A stretch of DNA of 38,464 nt from Oscillospiraceae bacterium (GTDB lineage Bacteria > Bacillota > Clostridia > HGM11514), in contig SVJP01000005.1 in assembly GCA_015068925.1 (NCBI GenBank), positions 1 through 38,464 on the forward strand, written 5' to 3'. The notes beneath the pieces were generated by a model. That model did not search any database and was not told where the DNA came from. It saw only the letters and a list, made by a program, of their open reading frames with translations. Of the stretch, positions 2,073 to 34,431 are shown in pieces; position 1 is the stretch's first letter, and every line of letters begins with the position of its first letter. Made by a program: the position numbers and the translations under genes.

Positions 2073-2088
2073 AGATGTTGAAAGGAGC

Positions 2089-2379
2089 TGTAGCAAAATG
2101 AATTTCATTTACTACGGCTCCTTTGGGGTGGACGGAAAATAGCACAGATTGGACAAACTGAGCCAACAAAGCCCATTTCAAGGGCTTTGTTGGGTTACCC
2201 GAAGGCGTACGTAGGTACGTCGAGAGGCGAAGTTTGTTCAAAACACAAGGCATTTTATCATCGAAATTCGTCATTTGACGAATTTCTTCCTTAAGTTTTT
2301 CTTTATTTTGATTTATCGGATGCATTAAAAGGCTTTGTTAAGCGATTTTTGCCTTGTGTGGTGTGTGCATTTTGCTACA
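2089..2379. mobile_element. MITE-like element, copy 1 (291 bp, 12-bp perfect terminal inverted repeats)
   Basis: TGTAGCAAAATG at 2089-2100 and CATTTTGCTACA at 2368-2379; internal hairpins CAACAAAGCCC/GGGCTTTGTTG, CGTAC-GTAG-GTACG, GAAATTCGTC/GACGAATTTC; homologous to 9599-10157. Confidence 0.75.
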
Positions 2380-2398
2380 CCCCCTTTTTTTGTAATGA

Positions 2399-8351: not shown

Positions 8352-9581
8352 ATGATAAAAGAGCTTACCATTATTTTGCCAAAGGTGTTACCAATTGTAA
8401 GAGATCAAAAGAATCAGGACATTAAAAATGATTTTTCGGAATACAATTTGTATTTTTCCAATATGATTTATCCTTATTCGGAGGATTATGATATTCAGAT
8501 AGCTTGTGAATACGGAAAAAACTATGGTGACAGATGGTGTATCAACGAATTTCCCAATGATGTTACTCAATTTCCTTTGGAAATTTCGGTATATGGGAAT
8601 TATGGGGAATTGTTAAAAACAAAGAGCTGTACGGTAGAATTATATGAAAAAAGCTTTAACGAATCACCGGTTTCACTTCTTTGCATTGGAGACAGTATGA
8701 CGCATAACGGTACCTATGTTACCCATGTTGCCACAAAGCTGTATCAGGTGCTTACCAAGGGCTGCCGTTCCTTCAATGGCTTGATAAGGCATGAAGGACG
8801 GGGTGGTTGGAAACTGTCTGATTATTTTACACGTTATGAAGAGCAATGGGGAATTTCACCCTTTTTATTTCCAAAGGGAATTGACAATTATTATGGGGAT
8901 GTTGCTTTTTTTGAGCAAATAAAGCATTTGGACGGAAACACCTATTCTTATACCGGTTTTTCTTATGAAACACCTTCTGAGGGTCAGTGTTATTACCGTG
9001 AAGGGAAATTGTATCAACGAGGAAAGAAGGAAGACATCTTATTTCAGGAAAATCCCGAATTTGAATTTCATTTCGGAAAGTATTGCAAGCGGTATCAGAT
9101 TGGAAAAATAGATATTGTGTCTTTGTTAAGCGGTTGCAATGAATTGCAATATGCCTCTTATCATGAGGCAGAAGAAATCATAGATTCCTACCTTTCCTAT
9201 GCAAAACAATTGATGGCATCTGTTTGGGAGTATGATTCTTCGATTCAAATCATTGTGAATTTGCCTGTTTTGGGTGCAGATTCTTATTCCTGGGGATGTA
9301 AACTGAATTGCTGGAGCTCCTTAAAACAGTATAATTATCATATTATGTGCTTGGGACAAGCAATTTTGGATGAATTTGACGGAATGGATAATGTGTTTAT
9401 TTCTCCCATGCTGTTGACCATAGACCCTGTTCACGGCTTTCCCGTTCAAGCGGTTCCTGCGAATCTGTATCATCCTACCCTTGTCAACCACCTGAGCAAC
9501 TGGGTGCATCCCAATGAATTTGGGTATCGCCAAATGGGAGATGCATTGGCGGGAGTAGTGCAAAAAATCAGAACAAAGTGA
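8352..9581 (+). CDS. SGNH/GDSL-family hydrolase
   Basis: Block I CIGDSMTHNGTY; late block HPNEFGYRQMGDAL. Confidence 0.8.
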   Translation: MIKELTIILPKVLPIVRDQKNQDIKNDFSEYNLYFSNMIYPYSEDYDIQIACEYGKNYGDRWCINEFPNDVTQFPLEISVYGNYGELLKTKSCTVELYEKSFNESPVSLLCIGDSMTHNGTYVTHVATKLYQVLTKGCRSFNGLIRHEGRGGWKLSDYFTRYEEQWGISPFLFPKGIDNYYGDVAFFEQIKHLDGNTYSYTGFSYETPSEGQCYYREGKLYQRGKKEDILFQENPEFEFHFGKYCKRYQIGKIDIVSLLSGCNELQYASYHEAEEIIDSYLSYAKQLMASVWEYDSSIQIIVNLPVLGADSYSWGCKLNCWSSLKQYNYHIMCLGQAILDEFDGMDNVFISPMLLTIDPVHGFPVQAVPANLYHPTLVNHLSNWVHPNEFGYRQMGDALAGVVQKIRTK

Positions 9582-9598
9582 ATCAGTACTATAAGACC

Positions 9599-10157
9599 TG
9601 TAGTAAAATAATTTATGCTATCGCCCCGGATCGTTTCAGGGTGGGAGAAAAACAGTGCAGAATGGACAAAACGAGCAAAAGCAAGGGATTCCCTTGCTTC
9701 AGCCTGTCGATAAACCTATCGACAGGCTGGCAGACCAAGAAAAAGGAAGGGATATTTTGTCAAAATGAATCGCAGACAGTACGTTGGTACGGCAAGTGTT
9801 CATTTTGGCAAAAAGCAAGTAACCGTCTGGGAAATTCAATATTTTCCAGACGGTTTTTTACGGTTTTATTATAGATGAAACATCCATAATTCAATCTTTT
9901 TTCCTTTTGTGTGCTTGCGGTAGACCGACTTTTTCGACGGTCAGAAGCAAGGGATTCCCTTGCTTTTGGTTACCCGAAGCCGTATGTGGATACGACGAGA
10001 GGTGAGTTTTGTTCATAGCGCATAGCATTCATTGAAATGAAATTCGTTGTATCACGAATTTTTACCTCTTGTTTTCTGTTATTTGTGAAACTTTAGTTTG
10101 TCTGAAAGGCTTGAATAAAGGGTTTTTTGCTTTGTGCGATCTGTGCATTTTGTTACA
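9599..10157. mobile_element. MITE-like element, copy 2, split by a nested insertion
   Basis: Terminal repeats TGTAGTAAAAT (9599) and ATTTTGTTACA (ending 10157); flanks GAGC[hairpin]GGTTACCCGAAG match copy 1; 559 bp minus 245-bp insert and 21-bp duplication = 293 bp, close to 291 bp in copy 1. Confidence 0.72.
9700..9944. mobile_element. 245-bp nested hairpin-rich insertion flanked by a 21-bp direct repeat
   Basis: AAGCAAGGGATTCCCTTGCTT exact at 9679-9699 and 9945-9965; right half closely matches window positions 1-127. Confidence 0.68.
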
Positions 10158-10175
10158 CCCTCTATGTGATCAAGA

Positions 10176-28079: not shown

Positions 28080-29591
28080 ATGAAACAGTTGATGAGTTTA
28101 ATTATTCTGGATGGTTTTGGAATCAATAATGCAGAATCGGGCAACGCCATTCATTCTGCAAAAACTCCCAATTTGGATGCCTTGTTCCAAAAATATCCTC
28201 ACACCCAAATTGCCGCAAGCGGTATGGATGTAGGATTGCCTGACGGGCAGATGGGAAATTCCGAGGTTGGTCACACCAATATCGGTGCAGGAAGAATTGT
28301 ATATCAGGAATTGACCCGTATCACCAAATCCATTCAGGATGGAGATATGTTTGAAAATCCTGATTTAAAAAGTGCAATGCAAAATTGTATTGAGAAAGGT
28401 ACTGCCTTGCATCTTTTAGGATTGTTGTCTGACGGCGGCGTGCACAGTCATAACACTCACCTGTATGCCTTGATTGAAATGGCAAAGAAAATGGGTGTAA
28501 AGGATATCTGGGTGCATTGTTTCCTGGATGGCAGAGACGTACCCCCTCAGAGCGGTAAGGATTTTGTTCAGGAATTGCAGGAAAAATTGGAAGAAATCGG
28601 TGCAGGTAAGGTGGCAACCGTCATGGGTCGTTACTATGCTATGGACCGTGACAACCGTTGGGAACGCGTTGAAAAAGCTTATGACGCGATGGTAAAAGCA
28701 GAAGGAATCAAGGTTCCCTGTCCCGTTTGTGCCGTTGCAAATTCTTACAAGGAAGAAGTAACCGACGAATTTGTAGTGCCTGCAGTAGTAGAAGGCTTTG
28801 AAGGCATCAAGGAAAATGATTCCATGATTTTCTTTAACTTCCGTCCTGACCGCGCAAGAGAAATTACCAGAACCTTTGTAGACCCCGAGTTTGACGGATT
28901 TGAACGGGAATATTTCCCTGTTCAGTATGTGTGCATGACCCAGTATGATGCTGCAATGCCCAATGTGTCCGTTGCCTACAAGCCCGAAAGCTTAACCGAT
29001 ACCTTCGGAGAATATATCAGCAAGAAGGGACTAAAACAGCTCCGTATTGCTGAAACGGAAAAATATGCCCATGTTACCTTCTTCTTTAATGGCGGCGTAG
29101 AAAAAACCTATGAAGGAGAAAGCCGAATCCTGGTGAATTCTCCCAAGGTTGCCACTTATGATTTACAACCTGAAATGAGTGCTTACGAAGTAACCGAAAA
29201 GGTGTGCGAGCAAATCAGAAGCGGAGAATTGGATGTGATCATCTTAAACTTTGCAAACTGCGACATGGTTGGTCATACCGGTGTGTTTGAAGCGGCAGTT
29301 GCAGCAGTAGAAGCGGTTGACACATGCGTTGGCAAAGTAATGGATGAAATTGAAAAGGTAAACGGAATTGCAATCATTACCGCTGACCACGGAAATGCTG
29401 ATTGCATGGTGGATGACACCACAGGCGGACCCTTTACCGCCCATACCACTAACCCCGTTCCCTTGCTCCTCAATCAGAAGGATGCCAAGCTGAAGGAAGG
29501 CAGACTTGCCGATATTGCTCCCACCATGCTTGACTTGATGGGACTGGAAAAGCCTGCATCCATGACGGGTGAATCTTTGTTAATGAAATAA
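28080..29591 (+). CDS. gpmI: 2,3-bisphosphoglycerate-independent phosphoglycerate mutase
   Basis: [51 protein letters not shown]. Confidence 0.98.
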
Positions 29592-29606
29592 GAATTGAAA
29601 AAACGA

Positions 29607-31136: not shown

Positions 31137-31219
31137 CCGATATTGCTCCTACCATGCTTGACTTGATGTGGCTGGAAAAGCCTGCATCCATGACGGGTGA
31201 ATCTTTGTTAATGAAATAA
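31137..31219 (+). pseudogene. Duplicated gpmI 3' end (83 bp, 80 identical)
   Basis: CCGATATTGCTC..ACCATGCTTGACTTGATG..CTGGAAAAGCCTGCATCCATGACGGGTGAATCTTTGTTAATGAAATAA matches 29509-29591 with 3 mismatches. Confidence 0.95.
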
Positions 31220-31247
31220 AAAAAGTCCGAAACAGAAAAAAAGAAAG

Positions 31248-32782: not shown

Positions 32783-32930
32783 TTTGTCTCTTTCCTCCCT
32801 TCTTGTTTTCTTCATTTTATTATACCACAATCCCTTATTTCGGTCAATTCTTTTTCCCTTTTTCAAAAAAATTTTGTTTTTTTTTGCAATTAGGGGTAGA
32901 TTTTTGTTGAAAAATAGGGTATAATATAAG

Positions 32931-33128
32931 AAGTGCCTATGCACCGAGCAGTGAAACTTAAGCTGCAAGCACAAACGAGAAACCAAGAAAACATGATTTT
33001 TGTTTTCTGTTTTGAGTTTAGCGGAGCTGCTTAAGTGAGCGACCGAGAGGGGCTGGAGGCATGACAAAGAAGTGCCTGTGCACCGCTTTAGTGGACGGGC
33101 AGGGAAAGTAAGCCGTGAGCAAAGCTAT
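32931..33128 (+). repeat. GGGGCATAAGCC family repeat, copy B, plus a partial second unit (putative structured leader RNA)
   Basis: AAGTGCCTATGCACCG...AGTGAAACTTAAGCTGCAAGCACAA...GCGGAGCTGCTTAAGTGAGCGACCGAGAGGGGCTGGAGGC...AAGTGCCTGTGCACCG; starts just after TATAAT at 32920-32925. Confidence 0.7.
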
Positions 33129-34160: not shown

Positions 34161-34222
34161 TTTTATGGTGGAAATTCTTCGATTTTTATTGAATTTATTT
34201 TTCCGTAGGAAAAATTACCACT

Positions 34223-34375
34223 CGGGGCATAAGCCTTTCTCTGTCCGGCATCCAGCCCCTCTCGGCCACTCACTTAAGCAGCTCCGCTAAGCTCAAAACA
34301 GAAACCTACGATTTCTTCGGTTTCTCCCTTGTGCTTGCAGCTTAAGTTTCGTTGTTCGGGGCATAAGCCTTTCTT
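34223..34375 (-). repeat. GGGGCATAAGCC family repeat, copy C (minus orientation)
   Basis: Reverse complement aligns with copy B over most of its length (GAAACTTAAGCTGCAAGCACAA, TTAGCGGAGCTGCTTAAGTGAG, CCGAGAGGGGCTGGA). Confidence 0.8.
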
Positions 34376-34402
34376 TTCGAAAATTTTTCGAAACCAAATC
34401 TA

Positions 34403-34431
34403 TTGACAAAGAACTGAAAAAAGATTATAAT
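34403..34431 (+). promoter_or_regulatory. Promoter of the MFS gene
   Basis: TTGACA 34403-34408, 17 nt, TATAAT 34426-34431. Confidence 0.8.

Follow-up and report, generated by a model that had tools for sequence, protein, structure and literature searches.

Introduction

DDE transposases usually produce a short target duplication of fixed length. A different behaviour is known from the IS1182 family of insertion sequences (IS): in Staphylococcus, IS1272 and TnSha1 insert at hairpins that have no consensus in sequence, and several of these hairpins are confirmed terminators (Furi et al., 2016, PMC4923244; Wan et al., 2017, PMC5678879), and IS1272 deletes or replaces the target hairpin, leaving no duplication (PMC4923244; PMC5678879). 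The model of Wan et al. (2017; PMC5678879) includes, as pathway b of the figure, duplication of the whole stem-loop through attack at its 5′ feet, a hypothetical alternative to the observed replacement. Palindromic sequences are reported as the targets of some IS1182 members, whether or not a duplication results (Siguier et al., 2015, as cited by PMC4923244 and PMC5678879; also PMC12056078); palindrome targeting by some members of the family and terminator targeting by IS1272 are already published. Here we analyse contig SVJP01000005.1 of an Oscillospiraceae bacterium (38 464 nt, hereafter the window), which is contig 75 of a 2.18-Mb metagenome-assembled genome (MAG; 220 contigs, 86% complete). 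At positions 9700–9944 it carries a miniature inverted-repeat transposable element (MITE) with IS1182-type ends, inserted in a hairpin that is now present on both of its sides. As far as sequence comparison goes, this MITE and full-length IS of related genomes share their ends, insert beside hairpins that are unrelated in sequence and leave the hairpin in two copies, with the duplication centred on its dyad axis.

Insertion site and element ends

The 21-bp sequence AAGCAAGGGATTCCCTTGCTT occurs exactly at both 9679–9699 and 9945–9965, with 245 bp between the copies, which bears out what an earlier reading of these letters without database searches (the sequence-only reading) had reported. Each copy is a hairpin, AAGCAAGGG-ATT-CCCTTGCTT, whose arms of 9 bp enclose a 3-nt loop, ATT. 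The duplicated unit is therefore a hairpin, as had been proposed, and not a perfect palindrome. Excision of the insert together with one copy restores the hairpin, with arms of 12 bp (CAA/TTG adds three pairs). The same genome also holds the empty site: the joined flanks with a single 21-mer (300 bp) are 86–88% identical to the surrounding repeat where it is uninterrupted, in three copies on contigs C155, C213 and C150, and the junction aligns with these copies free of gaps.

The element (+ strand) starts with CAGCCTGTCGATAAAC (9700–9715, + strand) and finishes with CTTTTTCGACGGTCAG (9929–9944, − strand; reverse complement CTGACCGTCGAAAAAG, with CAGACCGTCGAAAAAG in most copies), an imperfect inverted pair of 16 bp that matches the ends of IS1182-family elements on both sides. 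The left end is also a palindrome, CAGCCTGTCGATA-AACC-TATCGACAGGCTG (9700–9729, a 13-bp hairpin), which shows compensating changes in relatives (CAGCGTG../..CACGCTG). Further in, the arms TTTTGTCAAAATGAA/TTCATTTTGGCAAAA enclose a GTAC-GTTG-GTAC motif, and a terminator-like hairpin followed by a T-run (9823–9853, + strand) varies in sequence between relatives; all of these structures had been named in the sequence-only reading. The only open reading frame of at least 90 aa that crosses the element (9578–9874; 98 aa, GTG) enters from outside, in agreement with the earlier view that the insert has no plausible gene. It is thus short, multi-copy and without a credible gene, has terminal inverted repeats and a 21-bp target duplication, and its empty site is at hand.

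Bacterial MITEs as reviewed in PMC10969869 are likewise short, gene-less, multi-copy and intergenic, with terminal inverted repeats and a target duplication, but the present element differs from them in its hairpin targets and its covarying internal structure; IS1182 is not mentioned in that review.

Copies in the genome

A search of the MAG with this interval as query returned approximately 45 full or partial copies of the inner element, and approximately 10 of the surrounding repeat. Relatives of the MITE were found in six other genomes (G052, G042, G047, G026, G060 and G077). Many MAG contigs start or stop inside the inner element; insertions of this kind explain where many of these assemblies break. 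A second copy in the window itself, truncated to its right part, lies at the contig start (1–128, + strand), where its right end adjoins the hairpin AATCATTCAACAAAGTTGAATGATT.

The MAG listing contained 45 rows of MITE ends, five of which were false motif hits, leaving 40 genuine ends. Under a strict definition of adjacency (stem of at least 7, no more than 2 nt from the element end), 35 of the 40 adjoin a hairpin, rising to 38 when decayed hairpins (L053, L058 and L026) are counted. Inspection of genome copies for flanking palindromes had been the check suggested by the sequence-only reading, and its outcome, with relatives behaving alike, supports the proposal that the insert recognizes or duplicates palindromes. 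The target hairpins vary widely from site to site while the MITE sequence stays conserved, and where both sides lie on one contig they usually carry the same hairpin (e.g. ACCGAATGCCAATGAGGGCATTCGGT, AGGGGCAGTAGCAAAATGATTTTTGCTACTGCCCCG and AGGTGTAGCAAAAACCATTTTGCTACACCC); most two-ended copies show the hairpin duplicated. Because approximately 45 copies exist in the genome and most ends lie beside a different hairpin, the insertion in the window is not a chance arrangement.

Associated transposase

The likely trans factor, judged by shared ends, is an IS1182-family DDE transposase, which supports the earlier supposition that mobility would need one. Contig 175 holds a relic (L031) whose transposase, of the DDE_Tnp_1_6 type, is reduced to 248 aa by an internal deletion; CAGATTGTTGAAAAAG and CAGACTGTCGAAGAAC delimit the relic, which has one hairpin per side, the two being unlike each other. 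Ends of the CAGACTGTCGAAAAA type occur both in this relic and in full-length IS, and the MITE ends match them, CAGnCtGTCrAaAAA being common to the MITE and the full-length elements. A full-length IS of 1522 bp, with ends CAGACTGTCGAAAAAC and CAGACTGTCGAAGAAC and a hairpin of approximately 32 bp on both sides, was found in G034 (a record also found as Pseudoflavonifractor sp. An44). Its 484-aa product (L073) scores 385.9 bits against NF033551 (cut-off 270) and contains the domains PF13751 (DDE_Tnp_1_6), PF05598 (DUF772) and PF01609; a transposase above the NF033551 cut-off is what the full-length relatives share with the IS1182 family at large. A second PF13751 match (L032) has no matching ends and was set aside, and the C-terminal part of the G026 transposase was not found, probably having been lost at contig ends.

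Target hairpins of full-length insertion sequences

The IS survey consisted of one scan of genome contigs, which yielded 80 relatives, nearly all in Clostridia and many of these in gut species, and target statistics were drawn from the 47 copies with both ends recognizable (94 ends). Hairpin replacement of the IS1272 type does not describe these elements: in 39 of the 47 copies the target duplication is itself a hairpin, 20–64 bp in length (median 29). A hairpin adjoins 89 of the 94 ends, as against 44 of 8961 random positions (0.49%) taken from the same loci. The duplication is centred on the hairpin dyad axis (shift 0) in 36 of the 39 duplicating copies, the exceptions being L145 and L164, with an inverted core, and L208, with an indel.

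In L145 and L164 the two copies of the target duplication are identical apart from the hairpin core, which is inverted in one of them. A core is also inverted in the MITE's own terminator-like hairpin, between the window and contig C190 of G000 (L094). An inverted core might have been a sign of hairpin processing, but it is not diagnostic, because the same inversion occurs within MITE copies.

The pattern recurs across genomes. In G026, 21 of 24 IS ends adjoin 21 distinct hairpins, and the complete genomes of Chakrabartyella piscis (CP092441) and Clostridiales bacterium CCNA10 (AP018533) behave in the same way, which excludes an assembly artefact. Among the MITE relatives, hairpins are duplicated in G052 and G042, and a hairpin adjoins the left end in G060, G077 and G047. 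Beyond Clostridia, a plasmid element of Enterococcus faecium and ISBspe1 of Alkalihalophilus also fit the hairpin rule, so that ISfinder may already record examples. ISCfr1-type elements of Pseudomonadota (L232, L233 and L235) belong to the same family but show 4-bp GGCC duplications, not hairpins. IS1272 shares with the elements described here both the transposase family and the choice of hairpins, but deletes the hairpin that these elements duplicate; the only IS1272 copy examined had neither a duplication nor an adjoining hairpin. In the transposase tree the hairpin-duplicating copies of Bacillota group together, while IS1272 and one rhizobial row stand on very long branches, and we therefore make no claim on the order in which the target modes arose. 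No published dataset giving a whole-hairpin duplication rule with statistics, or a MITE that follows one, was found in the open papers searched; ISfinder lay outside this search and may list long palindromic repeats for some members.

Proposed insertion mechanism

We consider it probable, at roughly 85%, that 9700–9944 is a MITE mobilized in trans by an IS1182-family DDE transposase which duplicates hairpin targets. Extrusion of a palindrome as a cruciform would place its two 5′ feet side by side at the four-way junction, independently of arm length, and an enzyme of fixed geometry could then join the two 3′ ends of the element there, one to the foot on each strand. A single hairpin strand would stay with each flank and be made duplex by gap repair, so that the whole hairpin would be duplicated; in the window the target would have been another repeat's variable hairpin. 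How long the duplication becomes depends on the shape of the target and is not fixed by the enzyme, and the transposase appears to recognize that shape rather than a sequence. Attack at cruciform 5′ feet seems to us the best explanation of hairpin duplication.

Several observations weigh against this mechanism or complicate it. Two MITE ends (L011 and L021) have no hairpin, one copy (L037) has none, and the hairpins on the two sides are unlike each other in L002, L031, L034, L161, L191, L212, L216 and L219. These last copies are best read as products of recombination between copies; in CCNA10 (AP018533) L161 has on its left a hairpin that resembles the one on the right of the distant L180, which suggests exchange or rearrangement through IS copies. 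The cuts, although symmetric, do not always fall at the stem base: in 16 of 26 sites pairing extends outward past the cut by 1–5 bp, while in 9 of 35 the outermost pair is open. Off-base cuts fit partial extrusion, which does not account for them in detail. Neither an intact transposase nor any transposase fragment beyond the relic was found in the MAG, itself 86% complete, so that we infer mobilization in trans here from the matching ends and from the relatives. Recognition of a single-stranded hairpin during replication is a possible alternative to the cruciform.

The transposase might also bind its target as a dyad-symmetric duplex, as a dimer or multimer and without extrusion. The symmetry of the cuts in 36 of 39 copies would suit such a complex; a rigid one should, however, fix the stagger, and within one enzyme group the duplication ranges from 20 to 64 bp. 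The targets, moreover, have nothing obvious in common in sequence except that they tend to start with A and finish with T, and we regard duplex binding as unlikely. Equally improbable in our view is that the transposase senses transcription termination, through paused RNA polymerase or an R-loop, instead of DNA hairpin structure. A T-run (at least 6 T in 10 nt) does stand at one outer foot in most targets (29 of the 39 IS duplications), but approximately one-quarter have none (the 64-bp inverted repeat at L155 and the AT-rich palindrome at L190 are examples), and the polarity of transcription does not predict a dyad-symmetric cut. On the preferred cruciform mechanism, the targets are mostly intrinsic terminators because these are the common strong palindromes between genes.

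The idea that the flanking hairpins are part of the element, or were put in place by homologous recombination between hairpin repeats, has very little left in its favour. Certain targets do belong to repeats (L005 and L025, for example, lie at outer-element hairpins), and the likeness of L161 and L180 suggests exchange between copies. Against this, the flanking hairpins differ between copies of a conserved element, uninterrupted copies hold one hairpin without a gap, and left and right hairpins match in 39 IS copies; the diversity of hairpins and the empty sites have already refuted the idea for most copies. The sequence-only reading had pointed to transposases of the IS200/IS605, IS110 or repetitive extragenic palindrome (REP)-associated types, enzymes which can use or target hairpins, but a role for any of the three is next to nil: all three groups lack the terminal inverted repeats and long target duplication of the MITE, IS200/IS605 and REP-associated systems having no target duplication at all, IS110/IS1111 elements depend on a DEDD transposase and a bridge RNA, and both the MITE ends and the target signature match IS1182-family DDE elements.

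The duplications of 20–64 bp that track the hairpin constitute a natural dataset on which to judge the idea that a transposase can read DNA shape, as in a cruciform, and not sequence. The duplication outcome, hitherto only hypothetical, can now be set beside the deletion caused by IS1272, and attack at the 5′ foot versus the 3′ foot becomes a testable difference. Insertion is probably nearly silent, because the duplication leaves a stem on each side; entering beside terminators while preserving a stem at either flank would amount to a safe-site strategy and could permit dozens of copies.

Structured internal module

The GTAC motif of the MITE belongs to a conserved internal structure (9755–9813, + strand) in which an 18-pair stem closes a GTAC-NNNN-GTAC mini-hairpin. 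In an alignment (A4) of 15 copies, 13 of them distinct, from seven genomes (G000, G026, G042, G047, G052, G060 and G077), 12 of the 18 stem pairs have changed on both sides and 98% of cells are paired. In all, changes on both sides affect 13 of 23 pairs, a value that none of 500 shuffles reached, with slid controls far below it. The core GGCGTACNNNGGTACG was present in 15 of 99 genomes of the class, at up to 53 per genome (0–1 per genome for the reversed control), and is common to the MITE and the outer repeat (window 9979–9994 and 2204–2219), although the two look unrelated and have different ends. Nothing credible was found in Rfam for either repeat, and the exact core motif was not found in the full-length IS loci searched. 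On its covariation, the module is a candidate for an undescribed structured RNA or DNA element; the sharing of its core by two repeat families with different ends is unexplained. A wider proposal, which we offer as tentative, would join these observations: a structure-guided branch of IS1182 would join DNA at cruciform 5′ feet with no fixed duplication length, and its MITEs would carry an undescribed module (the covarying stem plus the GGCGTACNNNGGTACG hairpin) that also occurs in a second MITE-like family with different ends and would serve either mobilization or a cellular function of its own.

Host repeat and further repeats

The repeat interrupted by the MITE spans approximately 9597–10163 (+ strand), with a left hairpin like GGGGCTGTAGCAAAAT..ATTTTGCTACAGCCCC, the right end ATTTTGTTACACCC and the core motif GSCGTAYNNNGRTACG at 9979–9994 (+ strand); its end repeats differ from those of the MITE. 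An uninterrupted copy lies at 2081–2385 (+ strand), with its left hairpin at 2081–2124 and the core motif at 2204–2219. In this family (loci with the core motif, L237–L266) the shared core is preceded by CCCGAA and followed by TCGAGAGG. The 'variable hairpin' that the sequence-only reading had taken as host does belong to a second repeat family, but as an optional segment that is missing in some relatives (L241, L249 and L261). The outer stem was not recovered by RNAalifold, and our claims for this family are therefore restricted to the short core hairpin and to the flanking arms that can be seen. Left-end and central hairpins of the outer repeat have several times served as MITE targets (L005, L025, L006 on contig C116, and window 9676–9968), and in G046 copies of the outer repeat stand in tandem, approximately 242 bp apart.

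Elsewhere in the window, an 86-bp direct repeat (95% identical) occupies 29509–29594 and 31137–31222, and a further dispersed family, 71–80% identical and present in both orientations, is found at 151–403, 32928–33085 and 34214–34431.
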